In this document: one piece after another, positions 9,503 to 28,422 of the stretch | Layout: every line of letters starts with the position of its first letter | Numbering within the stretch: the stretch's first letter is position 1 | DNA from: an uncultured Eubacterium sp. | GTDB lineage: Bacteria > Bacillota > Clostridia > Lachnospirales > Lachnospiraceae | Direction of reading: 5' to 3' | NCBI GenBank assembly: GCA_900548465.1 | Contig: URKY01000032.1 | Location: forward strand, 1 to 28,422 | Length of the DNA: 28,422 nt | The notes under the pieces: model-generated | The model's database searches: none | The model's input: only the letters and a program-made list of their open reading frames with translations | Told to the model about the DNA's origin: nothing | Position numbers and translations under genes: made by a program

Positions 9503-9517
9503 AGAAAGGAGATGTGT

Positions 9518-11185
9518 ATGAGCAAAATCCAAAGGCATTTTAAGATGATGATTGGTGGCTTTCTGTTTTTCACAGTTTTTCTTATAGGAATGAGATGTAT
9601 GAGAGAGTCTGTCTATGCACTGGGAGATGTGTCAAGATATCATACTGAATTTATTAATCAGGCATGTCCAAATATAAAAGTAATAGGTAGGGCATATTTG
9701 GTTGGTCCTGACAATGTGGCACATTGGAAAAATCATATTGCCATGGATGTAATACCTGCAGGAACAAAGATTCAGGGTAAAACAGTAGATCCTAAGTATC
9801 TGCCACAGGATAATATTGAAAATTTAAAGGCACTGTATTCAAGTGTTACAGGATATCAAAATTTCACATGGATTAACGGTGCGTATTTGGAAAGTGAAAC
9901 AGCCAATTTACAGGTGGTAGCTTATGATAAGTATACTGTTACTTTTTGGAGTAATGGATATAAAAGTTTTACAGGAGCACCGGTTATGTGTGCCCAGTAT
10001 TTACTACAAGCTTCACATCCACCGGGATTTTATAGAACATCCAGAAACAATGTCTGGATTGATCTTGACAAAGAATATAACCGTATACCAGAAGGCACAA
10101 ATATTACATATGTTGCTGAGGGAAAAGTAACATGTGGATTTATTGGTATTAGTCCAATACCGGGAACAGCAGACAGTGGTGATGTATACAGAGTAGGAAT
10201 AAACAAAAAAATATATATAGTTACCACAAGAAGACTTTATTCTAATACACCAGATACAGATGATTTGTATTACAAAGTTATATTCCAGGGGAACAACAGT
10301 ACCAACTATCTAATGAACGGATATGGTTACTATTATGTAAAAAGTAAGTACATAAACCTTTACAAAAATGGAACAAAAGTGCCAAATGATGCTGTAATGA
10401 AAAAAGTTTATAACTTGAAAACATTAAAGGAAATTGGTGTTAGAAAATCAAAGGATGAGTCGAATAATGACAATGTTGTAGGGTTTCTTCAGGCAAATGC
10501 AGAGATAGAAACATTGCCAAAGGAAAGTGATTCAAATTGGACCACGGTATGGTTTAACAGTGAAAGAGCTTATGTTAGAACCAAATATCTGACAAATGTA
10601 GAGCTGGTTGAAAAGAAAACTAAAGTGAAAAATCTTTTTGTAAGCAATGTAAAAAATAATCAATATGTATTGTCATGGTCTAAGTCTCCTGGATGTACAG
10701 GTTACAACATTACATATACCGGTATTGGGAAAAAATCGAAAGCTTTCTTTAAAAAGACCAATTATAAGAAAACAACAATTACTGTAAACAGATCTTATTT
10801 TAAAAATAACAGAAATACTATTCTGGTGAATATTGCAGCAAATTATAAAACAGGAGCAACGGAAGCTACACAGATAGTTCTTTCGTTGGACAACAGACCA
10901 CCAAAGATGAAGAAGAAGCGTCTTAACATAAAGAAAAACCAGATATCCTTTAAAAAAATGGTGATACCTGTTGAGATTGTTCAATATTCAACAAATAAAT
11001 CATTTAAGAATGCTAAAACTGTATGGGACAAAAAGGGTGGTGGACTTAAGGCAATTAAAAAGTTAAAGTCTAACACAACTTACTACATAAGATATAGTAT
11101 TACAGCTGACGTATCCACTCTAAAAGGATATAAGAAAATTGGTGGAATTTGGTCCAAGACGGTAAAGGTAAAGACAAAAAAATAA
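9518..11185 (+). CDS. Secreted multi-domain protein with SH3-like and FN3-like regions
   Basis: I choose ATG 9518 because AAAGGAG lies 6 bases before it; the in-frame ATG at 9512 would touch the ribosome site. The 555-residue product has a signal peptide (residues 1-34, MIGGFLFFTVFLIG core, cleavage near VYALG). Residues about 35-290 are a Tyr/Asn-rich beta region I do not recognise. Around 300-365 (VYNLKTLKEIGVRKSKDES, then WTTVWFNSERAYVRTKYL) resembles a bacterial SH3-type repeat. From about 370 two FN3-like units follow (YVLSWSKSPGCTGYNITYTG; TTYYIRYSITA), and the end is Lys-rich. No LPXTG, SLH or other anchor is visible, so it is probably released or held by the basic tail. Function unknown; a surface or matrix role is inferred. 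Confidence 0.8.
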   Translation: MSKIQRHFKMMIGGFLFFTVFLIGMRCMRESVYALGDVSRYHTEFINQACPNIKVIGRAYLVGPDNVAHWKNHIAMDVIPAGTKIQGKTVDPKYLPQDNIENLKALYSSVTGYQNFTWINGAYLESETANLQVVAYDKYTVTFWSNGYKSFTGAPVMCAQYLLQASHPPGFYRTSRNNVWIDLDKEYNRIPEGTNITYVAEGKVTCGFIGISPIPGTADSGDVYRVGINKKIYIVTTRRLYSNTPDTDDLYYKVIFQGNNSTNYLMNGYGYYYVKSKYINLYKNGTKVPNDAVMKKVYNLKTLKEIGVRKSKDESNNDNVVGFLQANAEIETLPKESDSNWTTVWFNSERAYVRTKYLTNVELVEKKTKVKNLFVSNVKNNQYVLSWSKSPGCTGYNITYTGIGKKSKAFFKKTNYKKTTITVNRSYFKNNRNTILVNIAANYKTGATEATQIVLSLDNRPPKMKKKRLNIKKNQISFKKMVIPVEIVQYSTNKSFKNAKTVWDKKGGGLKAIKKLKSNTTYYIRYSITADVSTLKGYKKIGGIWSKTVKVKTKK

Positions 11186-20348: not shown

Positions 20349-22559
20349 TTATTTTACCATTACTCTGCAGACAACTTTCTTCGTACCTGAAATTACAGTA
20401 ATCTTAGCCTTTCCTTTTTTCAGTGCTTTGATTCTACCATTTCTGTAGACTTTGACAACCTTTTTATTTGAAGTTACGTAAGTGATTTTGTCGCGACTGT
20501 TTATTGGTGTTAAAGTAACTTTAAATTTAAAACTCTTACCCTTTTTCAAAGTCAGTTTCTTGCGGTTTAGTTTAATCTTTTTAGTAGTAATTTGGCCTGC
20601 CTGTGATTTATGAGCCGAATTTGCAGGTGTTTTTGTAGTTGTCTTAGAAGAAGCTATTTTTGCAAGTGTTACAGAATATACTTTTCCACAAGTGCTGCAG
20701 GTCTTGGATTTTAACCCCTTTTCTGTGGTTGTAGGTTCTTTTACGACTACATATTCTCCGTAACTATGTCCTGTTGCCTTTATGCTTCTTGTTTTTGTTT
20801 TGCCACATACAGTGCAGGTAAAAGTTGTTACGCCGTTTGCTGTACATGTAGGCTCTTTTGTTACTTTTCCGTCATCCCAGGTATGGTTGCCGGTTTTTTT
20901 AATGGTTTGACCATATGCCAGTCTCCTTCCACAATCAGTACAATATGTGTCTCCGGTATAACCATCTTCGCCACAGGTAACGTCTTTTTTCCTGCGGATT
21001 TCAGTATGTTGATGTCCTGTTGCATCAATGCTCGCAGTTTTGGTTTTGGCACATATACTACAAGTAAATGTTCGAACACCTTTCGCTGTACAAGTAGGTT
21101 CTGTTGTGACCTTTCCTTCATCCCAAGTATGAGTAGTTAATTTTGCAATGGTCTTACCGGATGAAATTTTTGTTCCACAATCAGTACAATATGTATCTCC
21201 TGTATAACCGGTTTCACCACAGGTAGCAGCTTTTTTATTACGGATTTCAGTATGAAGATGTTTTGTTGTTTTTGCAATGTTTTCTGTTTTTGTCTTACTA
21301 CAAATGCTACAAGTATAGGTCTTTACGCCTGTCTCTGCACATGTAGGTTTTTTAGTGATTACTCCCTTATTCCAACTATGATTTTCTGTTTTTGCAATAG
21401 TATTGCCTGATGAAAGTTTAGTTCCACAGTCAGGGCAATATTTATCACCGGTATATCCTTCCTCTTTGCAGGAAGCTTTCTTTTGATTTCGAATTTCAGA
21501 GTGGAGGTGATTTGTTGCATCTATGCCAATTTTTTCAATTTTTGTATTATTACAAATAGTGCAGGTATAAGTTTTTTCACCTTCCTTTATACAAGTTGGA
21601 ATCTTTGTAACTACACCCTGATTCCAATGATTATCACAGTCATGTACAATAATTGTTGCCGAAGTTGTTGATGGCAATCCGTACAGTGATGTGGTTAACG
21701 TGGTGGTACCTTCTTTAAGACCTATAATCTTTCCATCACTATAGGTGGCAATAGAAGGGTCATTAATGGAAACGGTTGGAGTATCTAACACGGTACCGAC
21801 TGATCCAAATTGATTTATAAGAGAAATTATAGGTGTAATATTTGGAGTTACTGTTTCTCCTAATCTTAGAACATATGAATCTTGGTCAAAATATGTCTTA
21901 TAATTTGTAATCCAACTTTTAGTTACTGAAACAGTAACAGTTTGTTCATTGTCATTTGCCGGTGTTTCTGTTGTATTAATGGAAGGTCTGGAGGCAAATT
22001 CTTCAACCCAGTAGTCATAGCCGTTGTAAGTGACATGACCAACTCCAACGCAGGTAAATTTATAATCTAACATATTTCTACGGTGCCCCTGACCGGCATA
22101 AGGTTCGTTATCTTCACGCCATCCGTTATTTACTGCTTCTGCCTTAGAATAAACATTAGGACTTGCTACTGCAATATTCTCACCTGTATCCAGTCTGGTT
22201 ATATTTTCTTCAGTATAAATAGTAAAAGGACTTTGACCATTTGGGCGGGTGTGTTCGTAGGATAGTGCAATTTCTGCTGCACGTTTCATTGCAAGTCGCT
22301 CTAAATCATAGTCATAGACAAGTTCTTTTAAACCGGGATATGCAACTTGTTTGGTATCAGTTTTGTCCCAAGCCCATGCGTCAGTAGGACTGGTTCTCAG
22401 TTCATTAATCATATCTAAGATTCTTCGGGCTTCTGTCTGGCCATATTTTACAGATATATTGACCGGAATGATTTCTTCTGCATTTACCTTTGTAGGAATT
22501 ATCATAAGTAAACTCATAACAAAGGAAAATAGCAGTAATTTTAAAGATGTTTTTTTCAT
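20349..22559 (-). CDS. Secreted CAP-domain protein with alternating CxxC modules
   Basis: The 736-residue protein begins with a signal peptide (1-27, cleavage after VNA). Residues 42-190 form a CAP/SCP domain: INELRTSPTDAWAWD, HTRPNG, GENIA, GQGHRRNML and YDYWVEEFA carry the family's conserved His/Glu residues. Residues 235-308 are a BIG2-like immunoglobulin domain. From 311 to 597 two modules alternate, a 39-40 residue one (HxWxxGxxTxxPTC...CxxC) four times and a 43-residue one (HxHxEIRxxKxxxC...GYTGDxYCxxCG) three times; a related unit without the first Cys closes the array near 633. A Thr/Ser/Ala linker and a C-terminal BIG2-like domain (KIKLNRKKLTLKKGKSFKFK...) end the chain. No sortase or SLH anchor. 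GGAAGG lies before ATG. It is probably a cell-surface or released protein; the activity of bacterial CAP domains is unsettled. Confidence 0.92.
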   Translation of the reverse strand: MKKTSLKLLLFSFVMSLLMIIPTKVNAEEIIPVNISVKYGQTEARRILDMINELRTSPTDAWAWDKTDTKQVAYPGLKELVYDYDLERLAMKRAAEIALSYEHTRPNGQSPFTIYTEENITRLDTGENIAVASPNVYSKAEAVNNGWREDNEPYAGQGHRRNMLDYKFTCVGVGHVTYNGYDYWVEEFASRPSINTTETPANDNEQTVTVSVTKSWITNYKTYFDQDSYVLRLGETVTPNITPIISLINQFGSVGTVLDTPTVSINDPSIATYSDGKIIGLKEGTTTLTTSLYGLPSTTSATIIVHDCDNHWNQGVVTKIPTCIKEGEKTYTCTICNNTKIEKIGIDATNHLHSEIRNQKKASCKEEGYTGDKYCPDCGTKLSSGNTIAKTENHSWNKGVITKKPTCAETGVKTYTCSICSKTKTENIAKTTKHLHTEIRNKKAATCGETGYTGDTYCTDCGTKISSGKTIAKLTTHTWDEGKVTTEPTCTAKGVRTFTCSICAKTKTASIDATGHQHTEIRRKKDVTCGEDGYTGDTYCTDCGRRLAYGQTIKKTGNHTWDDGKVTKEPTCTANGVTTFTCTVCGKTKTRSIKATGHSYGEYVVVKEPTTTEKGLKSKTCSTCGKVYSVTLAKIASSKTTTKTPANSAHKSQAGQITTKKIKLNRKKLTLKKGKSFKFKVTLTPINSRDKITYVTSNKKVVKVYRNGRIKALKKGKAKITVISGTKKVVCRVMVK
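20661..21629 (-). repeat. Coding repeats: alternating CxxC modules of the CAP protein
   Basis: Residues 311-633. Short modules begin at residues 311, 394, 477 and 559; long ones at 351, 434 and 516; a variant one at 598. The short-plus-long pair has a period of 82-83 residues (about 248 bp). The second to fourth short modules are closest to each other, which suggests recent duplication. Each module has a CxxC that could bind zinc (PTC...YTCTIC, YCPDCG). Confidence 0.9.
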
Positions 22560-22765: not shown

Positions 22766-23161
22766 ATGAATGAACATGTAGAGAAAGCTATGACGTTTAG
22801 GAATGAAGTACCTATGATTAGTAATTGTGCTCAGGCGGTTCTTAGAGCGTATGCACCGCAAATAGGAATGTCTGATGAGTTGGCACTTGCCATAGGAAAG
22901 AATTTCGGTCGTGGAATGAAATGCGGTGAAACGTGTGGCGCAATAACAGGAGCCTTAATGGTGCTAGGAGCATTGGGATTGGATACTCCTAATAAGGCTA
23001 ACGAGTTTAGAAAAAGAATAGCAGACAAACATAATGGAATGACAAGATGTGCGGATTTGCTTAGAGCAAATGCCCAGACGTATACACCGATGAAAGAACA
23101 TTGTAACGGTTTAATAGTGGAAGCAATAGAAGCTATTGATGAGATGGTTAAAGAAAACTAA
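22766..23161 (+). CDS. C_GCAxxG_C_C family redox protein
   Basis: From ATG 22766 (AAGGAG 9 bases upstream; the TTG and ATG further up lie in or before that site) the protein has 131 residues. Conserved Cys are C21 (NCAQAVLRAYA), C53 and C57 (FGRGMKCGETCGAITGALM), C95 and C113 (KEHCNGLI). This is the pattern of the C_GCAxxG_C_C family, which is linked to redox or iron-sulphur chemistry in anaerobes. The GxG before the first Cys is N-N here rather than the common G-x-x-C. No membrane segment. It is divergent from the CAP protein gene; TGGTAAAAT (22722-22730) may be its extended -10. Confidence 0.88.
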   Translation: MNEHVEKAMTFRNEVPMISNCAQAVLRAYAPQIGMSDELALAIGKNFGRGMKCGETCGAITGALMVLGALGLDTPNKANEFRKRIADKHNGMTRCADLLRANAQTYTPMKEHCNGLIVEAIEAIDEMVKEN

Positions 23162-23390
23162 TAATATTACTGGATTTTGAAAAGGCGATGTAAATGCTTA
23201 AATATGGAATTATTGTTAAGGTTGTGGAATTGATGTGTTTTAAATGTGCATTAAATAGGTTTGCACAGGTATGTACGAAAATTAATATTGAAGAGTATTA
23301 GAAGAAAACAAAACGTGAGTATAAATGATAGTAAAAATGTAAAATTTAAATACAAAGTCTGAATGGATAGAAAATTGAAATTCATTAAGG

Positions 23391-23427
23391 AAAAACAGCG
23401 TAGAAAGTCTTTTCTTATGCTGTTTTT
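23391..23427. terminator. Rho-independent terminator
   Basis: AAAAACAGCGTA (23391-23402) pairs with TATGCTGTTTTT (23416-23427) with one G-U pair and a 13-base loop. Both strands carry a T-tract. It lies 230 bases after the redox protein gene and may end its transcript. Confidence 0.75.
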
Positions 23428-23585
23428 GTTGATATATAAAAATTTTATATTAATCTTATATTTTGGCAAATAAATACAAAAAGCAAAAACAATAATAAAT
23501 AATAACGAATAGGAAAAATGCCAAAAACCTAGAAAAAATGAACAATTATATTAAAAAATAAGACAATAAAAGAAAAGAAGTAAAC

Positions 23586-23614
23586 TTAAATTAGTTTTAC
23601 AAATATGGTATAAT
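23586..23614 (+). promoter_or_regulatory. Promoter of the chitinase gene
   Basis: TGGTATAAT (23606-23614) is a perfect extended -10. A -35 around 23585-23591 (CTTAAAT) is weak, which extended -10 promoters tolerate. Transcription would start near 23621 and leave a leader of about 95 bases. Confidence 0.6.
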
Positions 23615-23637
23615 ATGGAATTGAAATGGTTTTATAT

Positions 23638-23662
23638 AAAAGTGCGAAAAAACACTTTTTTT
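23638..23662 (+). terminator. Leader hairpin with T-run before the chitinase gene
   Basis: AAAAGTG (23638-23644) and CACTTTT (23653-23659) pair around CGAAAAAA, followed by further T. It sits in the presumed 5' leader, so it could act as a weak attenuator; the stem has only 7 bp, mostly A-T. Confidence 0.4.
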
Positions 23663-23715
23663 AACAGGAATATTATAAAAAATATATATATTAATTAAAT
23701 TAAAAGGAGGAAAAA

Positions 23716-26700
23716 ATGAAAGTAAAAAAAATTACTTTTAAGAAGAGATTTACCCGTAAAGTCTCAAGTCTGGCAATGGCATTTATGATGGTTGCAAACC
23801 TTTTAGGTGGGTATTGTGCAGCGTCAGAAGTGTCAACAAAAAAAGTCAGCGCAGCAACTACGAAACAGACACAGGTTCCTTACCGTAATGTAATGTATTA
23901 TGGCGACTGGTCAATTTATGCAGGTCAGAAGAATTTTACACCTGACAAAATTGATGGTAGTTTAATTACACATTTGAATTTCGCATTTTTGGATGCAGAT
24001 GAAAATGGTGATTTAATTACAACGGATACATGGGCAGACTACGAAAATCCAAATGTAGGATATTCAGTAGGCACTGACAACAAGTATGCGGGAGTTTTAG
24101 GAGCAATGTTACTCTTAAGGCAGAAGTATCCTAATATGAAAATTGGTATTTCAGTTGGTGGATGGACAAGATCAGGAGATTTTCCTAAAATAGCAGCATC
24201 AGATAAGACAAGAAAAAATTTCGCAAACAATGTGGCAAAGTTTGTTCATTATTATGGATATGATTTTGTAGATATTGATTGGGAATATCCGACCGCAGAC
24301 AGAGATCCTGATCCGGAAGGAAATGGCGTAGCTATTGATAAAGGATGTAAAGGGTCACCGGCTGACACACAAAACTTTACATTATTATTACAGGAAATTA
24401 GAAATTCGTTAGACAGCTATGGTACTAAGGATAGTAAACACTATGAATTGTCAGTAGCAATGTCTGCATCACCAAAAATGATGTCAGCAATAGAGTATGA
24501 TAAAGTATTAAATATTGTAGATTTTGCCAATATGATGACTTATGACCTAAACGGTGCATGGGAAGGTTTTACAGCTCATCAGACAGCGCTTTATACAAAT
24601 CCTGCTTATAGTGAAGGTGATGCAGGACTTTCAGTTGATTCCTGTATTAAATATTTGGAAAATAAATACGGAGATAACATTGACTATTCGAAAATAGTAG
24701 TAGGTGTTGCTCCTTATACAAGAGGATGGAAAGAAGTAAAGAAAGATACCGGTAGAGATTCAAAGAACCCGGGATTATACGCAGATGCAACAGGTGAAAA
24801 TGGTGTAACTTATGCATACTCGGACATTGACTCATTAGTTAGTAAGTACAACTTAAAGAAATACTGGGACGATGTGGCTAAGGCAAATTATTTTTATAGT
24901 GAATCATCAGGAATGTTCTTTACATGTGACACTGAAGAATCAGTTGCAGAAAAAGGAAAATATGTAAAACAGAAACATTTAGGTGGACTTATTTCATGGA
25001 TGGCTTCTCTTGATGCGGCTAATTCCATTACTAAGACAATGAAAGAGTCTCTCTATGGATCATCTTCTATTCCGAATCAGGATATAATTGTGCCTGGAAA
25101 TGATGGAGTTACGACAGATGTTACAACATCAGGAGATGCTTATACAATTACAGTTAAGAATACAAATTCTTCAGTAACAAAAGCCAGTGGTTCAAAGGAT
25201 ATTACAATTATGCCATGGGCAGAATATTTTGGAAAAACATTAAGTTATCCATCTATATCAATAGAAACACAAAATGGAGAAACTTTGAGCGGTGATTGGA
25301 GTTCAGGTGGAACAATTACAAGTGAAAATGGAAATACAGTTGTTACTCCGCCTGAATGGAGTTCAAAAACATTAGAGCCCGGTAGTTCTTTAACTTTTAC
25401 ATTGAAATCAGGAAAAGGAACGGCCAGCCAGGCAAACATTAAGAAAATTACTTTGAGACAGAGAGCAGTTTCAGGTGGAGAGATTCTTTTCTCAACAGTA
25501 GTATATGAAAATGGTGCGTCTGTTGAAACGACAAAAACTCAGGAAGATGCAACAACGAAGGAGCAGACACCTACAACAAAAGCATCTGAACAGCAGACAA
25601 CAAAGAATGAAACTCAGACAACGAAGAAGACTGAACAGTCTACAACAAAGAAAGTTTCAACTGGAACCTACCCTGAATGGTCACCAAATAGTGTAAGCTA
25701 CAAATCGGGAGACTTGGTTCAGTATCAGAGAAGAGTATATGAATGTATATATCCACACGTTTCAAATTCAGCATGGACACCGACAGCAGCATTTACCTTA
25801 TGGAAAGAAAGAACAGATTTAGTAGCAGGAGATGTAGAGACAACAAAAGCCGGTGGAAGTGAACAGGGAACAACAGAAAATAATTATACAGTAAATTCTA
25901 AACTACCTGAACATATGGTAACAGGATATTGGCATAATTTTCTCAATGGATCAAAAGCACTTAAATTATCAGATGTTCCATCGTATTACGATATGATTTG
26001 TGTAGCTTTTGCAAATTCATCAACAACTCCGGGAAAGGTTACATTTGAACTTGATAAGGATTTAAGCAACTCTTTAGGAGGATATACAAAGGCTCAGTTT
26101 ATTCAGGACATAAAAGATGCTAAGGCAAAAGGACAGCATGTAATTATTTCAGTAGGTGGAGCAGAAGGTACAACTTACATAACTAATCAGGAAGCAGCAA
26201 ATCAGTTTGCTACAAGCCTTATATCAATGATAGAAGAATATGGGTTTGAAGGCGTAGATATTGACTTTGAAGGTGGCGCAGTATCAGGAACCGACTATAT
26301 TGCGGAAGCTCTAAGAGAAGTCCATGATCATTTTGGAGATGACTTCATTATAACTATGGCTCCTGAAACATACTATTTCCAGGATGTAAATCCTAATGGA
26401 ACAGCGGCAACATCTGCATATTACAGATTGGCATACAAGATTAGAGATATTCTTACAATTTGTTACCCACAGTTCTACAATACAGGTGGAATGACTGGTT
26501 ATAACGGATTTAATGCCCGGGTCGGAAATGCAGACTTCTTGACATCACTTTCAACATTATTATTGGAAAATGGACTAAGAGCAGATCAGGTAGCATTAGG
26601 ATTGCCATCAACACCTAACGCAGCTTCAAGCGGATATGTTTCAACAGATGTAATTTCTACAGCAGTGAAATCACTTGTTAATGGAACATCATCAGGCAGC

Positions 26701-28422
26701 TTTACAGCACCAAAGGCTTATCCAACATTCAGAGGTGTAATGACATGGTCAATTAACTGGGATGCTACAAATGGTTATGCATGGGCTAAAACAATGGATA
26801 CTCTTATGGATTCATTGGAAACACATGAGCAGCCAACAACAAAGGCAAATACGACGACAACAAAAGAAAATATTACAACAAAGAAAAATGAAACTACAAC
26901 TGTTCAGCCGGTTGTTAAGCCAACTGAAGTTATTGGATTAACACTTAATGAACAGAAAGACGGAACAGTAAAATATTCATGGGGTCAGACTGAAGAGCAG
27001 ATTGCCAGCGGTCAGATATATAAAGTATATATTGATGGAAAATATGTTGAATCTTACAATTTAGCAACAACAGCATCATATACATTTACAACAAATGGAA
27101 ATCATACAATTAAGATAACAGCAAATCTGAACGGATATGAAACAGAAGGTAAAGTACTTAATGTTGTTATCACAGGTTTAAACACACCTACAACAGTAAC
27201 TACAACTAAGGCAACAGAGACAAACCCTGGTACAACAACAGATGGATTGTCATCAAGACTTATGATTGGTTACTATCATACATGGAATAATGACGGAAAT
27301 CCGTTTATTAAACTTAGAGATGTAGACAAAAACTGGGATGTAATTAACATTTCATTTGCTGAACCGGTACAGGCAGGAAGTACAGATGGTAAAATGCAGT
27401 TTAACATTAGTGGTCTTTCATCAACATACACAAAGGAAGACTTTAAGAAAGATGTTAAGAATTTACAGGCTCAGGGCAAGAAGATTGTATTGTCAATTGG
27501 TGGATATGAAGGATACTTCTCATTAACATCAGACAGTGCAGTAAATCAGTTCGTGAGTGATATTAAATCTTTTGTAGATGAATATGGATTTGATGGAATT
27601 GATATTGACCTTGAACAGTCTTCAGTACAGTTTGAGAGTGGAAATGACAAAGATATTAATAACCCGACATCACCAAAGGTTGTAAATATGATAAAGGCTA
27701 TTCGTACAATTTGCGACAGCTATGGAGATGATTTCATTCTTTCATGGGCACCTGAAACATTCTATGTACAGTTAGGATATTCATTCTATGGCGGAATTAA
27801 TCAGTATTGCGATGCAAGAGCAGGTGTATATCTTCCAATGATAAATGCATTGAGAGATAAAACATCATATGTACATGTTCAGTTATACAATTCATCACCT
27901 GTTACAGGACTGGATGGAAAATCATATAATATGGGAACAAAAGAAGGCATTGTGGCAATGTGTGAAATGCTTCTGAAAGGTTTCCATGTCGGAGCATATT
28001 ACACAAATTCAACAGATGCTTCTACATATTTTGCACCACTTAGACCGGATCAGGTAGTAATTGGTGTACCTTCATCACAGGGTGCTGCAGGAAGTGGACA
28101 AGTTGCAAATTCAGTACTTCAGAGCGCATTTACGGAACTTAATAACAACTATCCGGGAATACGAGGAATTATGGCATGGTCTATTAACTGGGATTCATCA
28201 CAGAATAACAATTCTTTTGTAGATGAAAATGCCGCTTTCCTTGAAACATTAAAGAACGATAAACCAACAACTGTGGCGCCAACAACAAAAGCCCCTACAA
28301 CAGTAGCGCCTACTACAAAGGTAACACCAACAACGGTAGCCCCAACTACAACAGGTGGAGCTTTAGAAGGATATACAGAAGCAACAGTTAATCAGTGGAC
28401 ACCATCAGGTAAATGGGGATGT
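23716..28422 (+). CDS. Secreted multi-modular chitinase with three GH18 domains (3' end beyond window)
   Basis: The open frame covers 1569 codons and is still open at the window end. AAAGGAGG stands 6 bases before ATG. Order of parts: signal peptide (about 1-47); GH18 domain 1 (56-445; D183-F-V-D-I-D-W-E190, E190 being the proton donor by family rule; SVGGW and MMTYD blocks present); a beta-sandwich CBM2-like region (476-600); a Thr-rich linker; a CBM5/12-type chitin-binding module (652-699; YPEWSPNSVSYKSGDLVQY, then Y-x-C and LWKER); GH18 domain 2 (733-1015; E852 in GVDIDFE); a TTK linker; an FN3-like domain (1069-1155); GH18 domain 3 (1179-1510; E1300 in DGIDIDLE); a Thr/Pro linker; and the first residues of another module (TEATVNQWTPSGKW), perhaps a second CBM5/12. 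Substrate: chitin or similar beta-1,4-GlcNAc polymers. Domains 2 and 3 resemble each other more than domain 1. No anchor motif seen. Confidence 0.93.
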   Translation, partial: MKVKKITFKKRFTRKVSSLAMAFMMVANLLGGYCAASEVSTKKVSAATTKQTQVPYRNVMYYGDWSIYAGQKNFTPDKIDGSLITHLNFAFLDADENGDLITTDTWADYENPNVGYSVGTDNKYAGVLGAMLLLRQKYPNMKIGISVGGWTRSGDFPKIAASDKTRKNFANNVAKFVHYYGYDFVDIDWEYPTADRDPDPEGNGVAIDKGCKGSPADTQNFTLLLQEIRNSLDSYGTKDSKHYELSVAMSASPKMMSAIEYDKVLNIVDFANMMTYDLNGAWEGFTAHQTALYTNPAYSEGDAGLSVDSCIKYLENKYGDNIDYSKIVVGVAPYTRGWKEVKKDTGRDSKNPGLYADATGENGVTYAYSDIDSLVSKYNLKKYWDDVAKANYFYSESSGMFFTCDTEESVAEKGKYVKQKHLGGLISWMASLDAANSITKTMKESLYGSSSIPNQDIIVPGNDGVTTDVTTSGDAYTITVKNTNSSVTKASGSKDITIMPWAEYFGKTLSYPSISIETQNGETLSGDWSSGGTITSENGNTVVTPPEWSSKTLEPGSSLTFTLKSGKGTASQANIKKITLRQRAVSGGEILFSTVVYENGASVETTKTQEDATTKEQTPTTKASEQQTTKNETQTTKKTEQSTTKKVSTGTYPEWSPNSVSYKSGDLVQYQRRVYECIYPHVSNSAWTPTAAFTLWKERTDLVAGDVETTKAGGSEQGTTENNYTVNSKLPEHMVTGYWHNFLNGSKALKLSDVPSYYDMICVAFANSSTTPGKVTFELDKDLSNSLGGYTKAQFIQDIKDAKAKGQHVIISVGGAEGTTYITNQEAANQFATSLISMIEEYGFEGVDIDFEGGAVSGTDYIAEALREVHDHFGDDFIITMAPETYYFQDVNPNGTAATSAYYRLAYKIRDILTICYPQFYNTGGMTGYNGFNARVGNADFLTSLSTLLLENGLRADQVALGLPSTPNAASSGYVSTDVISTAVKSLVNGTSSGSFTAPKAYPTFRGVMTWSINWDATNGYAWAKTMDTLMDSLETHEQPTTKANTTTTKENITTKKNETTTVQPVVKPTEVIGLTLNEQKDGTVKYSWGQTEEQIASGQIYKVYIDGKYVESYNLATTASYTFTTNGNHTIKITANLNGYETEGKVLNVVITGLNTPTTVTTTKATETNPGTTTDGLSSRLMIGYYHTWNNDGNPFIKLRDVDKNWDVINISFAEPVQAGSTDGKMQFNISGLSSTYTKEDFKKDVKNLQAQGKKIVLSIGGYEGYFSLTSDSAVNQFVSDIKSFVDEYGFDGIDIDLEQSSVQFESGNDKDINNPTSPKVVNMIKAIRTICDSYGDDFILSWAPETFYVQLGYSFYGGINQYCDARAGVYLPMINALRDKTSYVHVQLYNSSPVTGLDGKSYNMGTKEGIVAMCEMLLKGFHVGAYYTNSTDASTYFAPLRPDQVVIGVPSSQGAAGSGQVANSVLQSAFTELNNNYPGIRGIMAWSINWDSSQNNNSFVDENAAFLETLKNDKPTTVAPTTKAPTTVAPTTKVTPTTVAPTTTGGALEGYTEATVNQWTPSGKWGC

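Follow-up and report, generated by a model that had tools for sequence, protein, structure and literature searches.

A single reading frame with three unlike GH18 domains in an uncultured Eubacterium sp., and a C-terminal end that differs from those of its close relatives

Several bacterial chitinases are known to carry more than one GH18 domain in a chain. ChiW of Paenibacillus sp. FPU-7 (PDB 5gzu) is a cell-surface protein that, in the available portion of its description, has two GH18 domains of the same type (56% identical) together with CBM54 and Ig-like spacers, and is endo-acting in character (PMC5132251). CmChi3 of Chitinolyticbacter meiyuanensis combines CBM5 modules with two GH18 domains, one of which was tested as endo-acting and the other as exo-acting; one chain can thus hold heads of both the endo and the exo type, as far as the available text goes (PMC8908422). 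In Clostridium perfringens ChiB (8ovr/8c6z), described with a single GH18 domain, the cleavage of 4-MU-GlcNAc2 and 4-MU-GlcNAc3 but not 4-MU-GlcNAc led to its classification as endo-acting, and its structure was interpreted as that of an enzyme which processes chitin starting at the reducing end, according to the accessible part of the report (PMC11426533). Also, Talamantes et al. (2016) counted 16 proteins for xylan and chitin that have three GH domains each, 10 of which were homo-GH, and the part of that survey available to us does not specify a triple GH18 (PMC4928363). Our searches of the open-licence literature yielded no paper describing a chitinase with a GH18 triple like the one presented here and none on a chitinase of Lachnospiraceae with two GH18 domains.

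The chain in this study resembles each of these systems in part. Its first GH18 domain (D1) is like those of ChiW, and D1 together with the following module (module X) is like C. perfringens ChiB over the whole length; unlike ChiB, nonetheless, it has two more GH18 domains (D2 and D3), and it has three heads in contrast to the two of CmChi3. Where ChiW has CBM54 and two GH18 domains of the same type, we find three unlike GH18 domains, and CBM54 was absent among the Pfam matches of P0001 and P0002, for which the Pfam copy used may hold no CBM54 model. The same three domains, CBM and linkers are present in P0002 and P0003, two proteins of Eubacterium sp. registered as “Glycosyl hydrolase family 18 protein”, which differ in having FN3-like repeats and a Lys-rich tail in place of the NQWTPSGKW module of our chain.

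The first-pass annotation had pointed to most bacterial chitinases having one GH18 and some two, and had named a routine occurrence of the three-domain order in relatives as counting against its reading; the comparison across homologues showed just such an occurrence. In the HMM tally, 39 of 121 proteins (the query and 120 of 144 homologues, among the matches listed) were D1-D2-D3, and the remainder of the same set comprised 44 D1-D2, 12 D2-D3, 11 D3-D3, 4 D1-D3, 2 D1-D3-D2, 2 D1-D2-D2, 2 D3-D2-D1, 1 D1-D3-D3, 2 D1, and 2 D3. These homologues came from 7986 scored candidates picked by shared words, so that the tally is a sample and not a census; it also includes proteins cut by contig ends and a few weak D2 labels that are doubtful (e.g., P0115, with a tree branch of 5.8). 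Furthermore, with about two candidates scored per genome, at least 21 of the 299 genomes from the family of G001 had a match at 1e-30, and four of those 21 (G001, G286, G301, and G011; loci L081-L084) had the triple in a single frame. All three domains were found in one frame also in G002 and G003 via other loci, giving six genomes in total. Multi-headed GH18 chitinases are already known and are well represented in the databases under generic names, and the architecture itself is unsurprising.

In the window (i.e., the whole stretch of 28,422 nucleotides that was analysed), the chain is encoded by a stop-free frame of 1569 residues at 23716-28422 on the forward strand, to which all coordinates below refer unless noted. 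The frame is still open at the contig end, in agreement with the earlier description of a chain of at least 1569 residues. A basic and then hydrophobic stretch opens the chain (about residues 1-49, 23716-23862) and looks like a signal peptide when the sequence and translation are read by eye; the protein would hence be secreted, as had been proposed. By eye, we also noticed AGGAGG at 23705-23710, 5 bases upstream of the ATG. An Rfam scan of the window at gathering scores gave no match, and a promoter scan of 23100-23800 gave 2 sites against 5.1 in shuffled sequences, that is, fewer than in the shuffles. Two further proteins of the window have a leader-like start: a CAP-domain protein at 20349-22559 on the reverse strand, with repeats and a Lys-rich Big_2 end, and a 557-aa protein at 9512-11185 on the forward strand, with a Lys-rich FN3-like end seen by eye and no Pfam family at 0.001.

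The Pfam family PF00704 (GH18) matched the chain in three stretches, with 353 bits over the entire protein against a cut-off of 29.6. The DxxDxDxE motif is intact in all three, namely DFVDIDWE (residues 183-190), EGVDIDFE (845-852), and DGIDIDLE (1293-1300), which places the catalytic Glu at residues 190, 852, and 1300 in D1, D2, and D3, respectively; SxGG is intact as well (SVGG from 146, SVGG from 812, and SIGG from 1260). The earlier call of three complete GH18 signatures with these Glu residues is hence confirmed by both the Pfam stretches and the motif positions. In terms of fold, the model of D1 matched the TIM barrel of 8ovr, and that of D2-D3, which is of moderate confidence and weak in its statistics (pLDDT 71, pTM 0.45, alignment of 5 sequences), matched 3ebv and the structures of NCTU2 chitinase. 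Besides GH18, CBM5/12, and the related EndoS barrel, no Pfam family exceeded its cut-off.

D1 (23872-25065; PF00704 at residues 57-433) is of the C. perfringens ChiB/ChiW type, ChiB being the nearest by sequence (8c6z, E 1.7e-106) and ChiW the next, and 8ovr is the top fold match of its model (mean pLDDT 80). An alpha+beta insertion at about residues 334-404, between late barrel strands, was seen only in the D1 model and not in D2 or D3 when the strand order was read. Directly after SxGG, D1 has Trp, D2 has Ala, and D3 has Tyr, and we take this position to be that of Trp275 in SmChiA. In the portion of the source available, Trp275 of SmChiA is given as +1 (PMC5132251). The insertion and the Trp residue would fit a cleft that is walled in D1 but open in the other two domains. 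D1 is followed by the beta-rich module X (residues 455-610, 25078-25545), in which no Pfam family was above its cut-off. The D1 and module X model aligned with 8ovr over 588 columns (TM 0.87 by query length, 39% identity), and because its fold is like that of the domain at the C-terminus of C. perfringens ChiB, module X is a putative second carbohydrate-binding module. Of the carbohydrate-binding modules noted previously in the plural, therefore, one is assigned by Pfam, namely a CBM5/12 at residues 654-697 (25675-25806; PF02839, 38.7 bits against a cut-off of 26.2), and the other is a candidate by fold similarity.

Thr-rich linkers, also described before, lie on both sides of CBM5/12 and past D3. 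D2 (25897-26844) is a compact GH18 domain of the Streptomyces coelicolor ChiA type, as supported by sequence (3ebv, E 7.2e-82), fold (3ebv, TMt 0.94), and tree, and D3 (27241-28269) is a compact GH18 domain of the Bacillus cereus NCTU2 ChiA type by sequence (3n11, E 7.6e-77) and tree; each of the two matches single-domain chitinases. Between them is a spacer (residues about 1060-1160, 26893-27195) that had no Pfam family above cut-off and was named FN3-like by eye; other large open frames of G001, G002, and G003 contain numerous separate matches to the region around it (residues ~1019-1190).

D1 had been assigned to a class unlike that of D2 and D3, and both the nearest relatives and the clades in our tree indeed differ. 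The pairwise identities are 24.4% (D1-D2), 25.1% (D1-D3), and 37.5% (D2-D3). The tree was made from 88 chosen domains, for which we took 13 out of 39 triples, six out of 44 doubles, and 23 of the loci; it has rough bootstrap and several long branches, and a few HMM-labelled D3 rows fall outside the D3 clade; in this tree, D1 was placed with Paenibacillus and a treponeme, D2 with Actinomycetota, Chloroflexota, and spirochaetes, and D3 with Paenibacillus and spirochaetes. Given that each class clusters with other phyla, the chain would have been assembled from different GH18 lines, and D1, D2, and D3 look separately recruited and not like tandem copies. A recent tandem duplication was considered and rejected in light of the above identities and the separate clades. 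Also, D3 is not fixed, since 44 of the 121 proteins are D1-D2 (among the matches listed, and including some cut sequences), and triples and D1-D2 doubles are intermingled in the D1 part of the tree, which suggests repeated gain or loss of D3.

The same three GH18 classes are found side by side in Treponema bryantii XBD1002 (L009, 9857-14794), but as two genes with two leaders: a D1 gene, with a CBM5/12-like end seen by eye, lies just a few codons ahead of a D2-D3 gene having its own lipoprotein-like leader. In P0085 and P0086 from kin of T. bryantii, D1, D2, and D3 are fused in one chain. The occurrence of the same set in both split and fused forms supports a joint action of the three domains. 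Alternatively, the domains might be redundant and serve to raise the dose with no division of labour, for which an insect chitinase whose two GH18 domains are described in the accessible text as nonsynergistic offers a precedent (PMC5786006), and the lack of D3 in the 44 D1-D2 proteins (out of 121, among the matches listed and with some cut sequences) would also be in line with this possibility; nonetheless, an inter-domain identity of 24-38% and separate ancestry are unlike a simple duplication for dose, and we regard redundancy as unlikely.

We favour the reading, which is probably correct, that a gut Eubacterium or its close kin secretes the chain as a multi-modular chitinase, whose binding modules would dock the protein and whose three heads would cut chitin in complementary ways. 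CBM5/12 and module X would dock the protein on chitin such as fungal walls or insect and crustacean particles in the gut. D1, with its presumed walled cleft and own putative binding module, might then move along single chains to release mainly GlcNAc2, while D2 and D3, which lack the insertion and would have open clefts, could cleave exposed internal bonds and thereby create new ends; flexible linkers would keep the three heads close enough to act around a single docking point, after which the soluble products might be taken up. As to the pairing of endo- and exo-acting domains suggested in the first-pass annotation, the nearest D1 relatives that have been characterised, ChiB of C. perfringens (PMC11426533) and ChiW of Paenibacillus (PMC5132251), are both reported as endo-acting in the portions of those papers available, which contradicts an endo/exo division as far as these relatives go; such a division among the heads is hence a guess. 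A natural one-chain set of three unlike chitinase heads, which recurs in bacteria with Eubacterium or Lachnospiraceae labels, lends itself well to asking whether tethered unlike GH18 domains synergise on crystalline chitin.

In terms of physiology, the chain had been considered a self-contained chitin degrader, which now appears doubtful. Our gene searches covered five of the six triple-bearing genomes (G011 was left out), and in four of these five, GH20 was not found. The triple chain should release GlcNAc2 or longer products, and the later steps would therefore need other genes. Genes of the GH3 and GH94 families were present in all five genomes, where they are not necessarily for chitobiose, and nagA was above cut-off in three of the five; given the gaps in GH20 and nagA, chitin as food is no more than a possibility. 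In G286, PF00704 matched only the triple chitinase and one other frame of 604 aa, so that the triple chain is the main GH18 enzyme by count. Among the gut genome bins of ant- and termite-eating mammals, furthermore, Lachnospiraceae is reported as the main family carrying GH18 in the part of the study available (PMC10654083). The chain could plausibly give gut commensals access to chitin from the diet or from fungi.

It is also conceivable, if quite improbable, that the true substrate is not chitin but a host or microbial glycan such as mucin, the N-glycan core, or peptidoglycan. PF23916 (EndoS TIM barrel) passed its cut-off with 40.7 bits against 27, with its best match on D3, and the Endo H model NF045482 matched at 47.8, below its threshold of 300; PF00704 is nonetheless far stronger at 353, and neither an EndoS- nor an Endo H-type model is the best on this protein. 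While a GH18 enzyme of C. perfringens favours branched substrates, for example carbohydrates of chicken mucus, this enzyme is ChiA, and D1 is similar instead to ChiB, an enzyme with a preference for linear substrates like chitin, according to the accessible text (PMC11426533). The presence of CBM5/12 and the fact that the nearest solved relatives are named chitinases likewise argue for chitin.

The four nearest full-length proteins, P0002-P0005 (2127-2255 aa, with P0002 and P0003 being 2130 aa), are from separate assemblies and differ from the window over residues 1-1525 at 2 (P0002), 2 (P0003), 16 (P0004), and 12 (P0005) positions; the three domains hence belong together. The labelling of two of the four as Eubacterium sp. 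also makes the earlier description of a gut-type anaerobe plausible. That the three-domain chain is an assembly artefact is scarcely credible: while the last 57 nt are a module found in our searches only in GH5, GH92, and GH16 proteins and the shared sequence is still running where the window stops, residues 1-1525 occur in the four full-length proteins on other contigs with 2-16 differences, and 39 of 121 proteins show the triple order (the query and 120 of 144, among the matches listed). A join between the GH18 domains, raised in the first-pass annotation, was looked for and not found, and is rejected for residues 1-1525. By these sequence comparisons, an artefact is refuted for the three GH18 domains, and doubt is confined to the tail past residue 1525.

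Past that residue, all four full-length proteins continue with repeats and a Lys-rich tail, the repeats in P0002 and P0003 being the FN3-like ones mentioned above. A Thr-Pro-Val-Ala linker follows D3 in the window (28270-28365) and is unlike all four near-identical proteins from residue 1526 (nt 28291), a point inside the Thr-rich linker from which the window instead leads to the NQWTPSGKW module. The start of this module (GYTEATVNQWTPSGKWGC..., 28366-28422) is cut by the contig end and matches a GH5 gene and a GH92 gene of G286 exactly, over 57 and 55 nt; G286, with these two places, was the only one of 23 genus genomes searched that had an exact nucleotide match to the window end. A protein search with residues 1526-1569 hit 12 proteins, namely five GH5 and four GH92 with the module and three GH16 with a close version, and none of the 12 had the GH18 motif; also, no NQWTPSGKW module was found by pattern among the 120 homologues listed of 144. 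With the end module otherwise found in our searches only in GH5, GH92, and GH16 proteins, the end of the window would represent either a strain-specific module swap or a misjoin. The contig stops inside a sequence that is repeated in a close genome, and this is how assemblers typically behave at repeats. The linker TTTGGALEG before the module occurs in no other protein compared, which slightly favours a genuine junction.

A more interesting side line than the chitinase architecture is that unrelated secreted enzymes have end cassettes in common. The C-terminal tail of P0002 (residues 1931-2130) is rich in Lys (52 K+R against 10 D+E per 200 residues), and when compared with the above 12 GH5, GH92, and GH16 proteins, it matched six at 93-97% identity, one at 67%, and the three GH16 proteins at 48%, with two unmatched. 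G286 has three strong copies of this tail in other frames, and its chitinase locus was not among the matches. The Lys-rich tail hence appears to be a swappable end cassette, and in kin of our chain it may retain the enzyme at the cell surface. More broadly, one might envisage a genus-wide plug-in secretome, in which Thr-rich linkers are the exchange points for end cassettes (a binding module, an FN3-like repeat, or a Lys-rich tail) among GH18, GH5, GH92, and GH16 enzymes, with the triple chitinase as one product, the tail of the window as a recent swap, and the Lys-rich tail as a common anchor that binds the surface non-covalently; this is a tentative idea, and somewhat unlikely to hold as a whole. 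No LPxTG was found within the last 60 residues of the eight relatives examined, so that the surface anchoring is a guess. Another C-terminal domain, mutually alike and reading approximately EGYQ...GGSRVVGSVEP...YKEVDYNW, was noticed in the triples P0025, P0028, P0032, P0036, P0039, and P0041.
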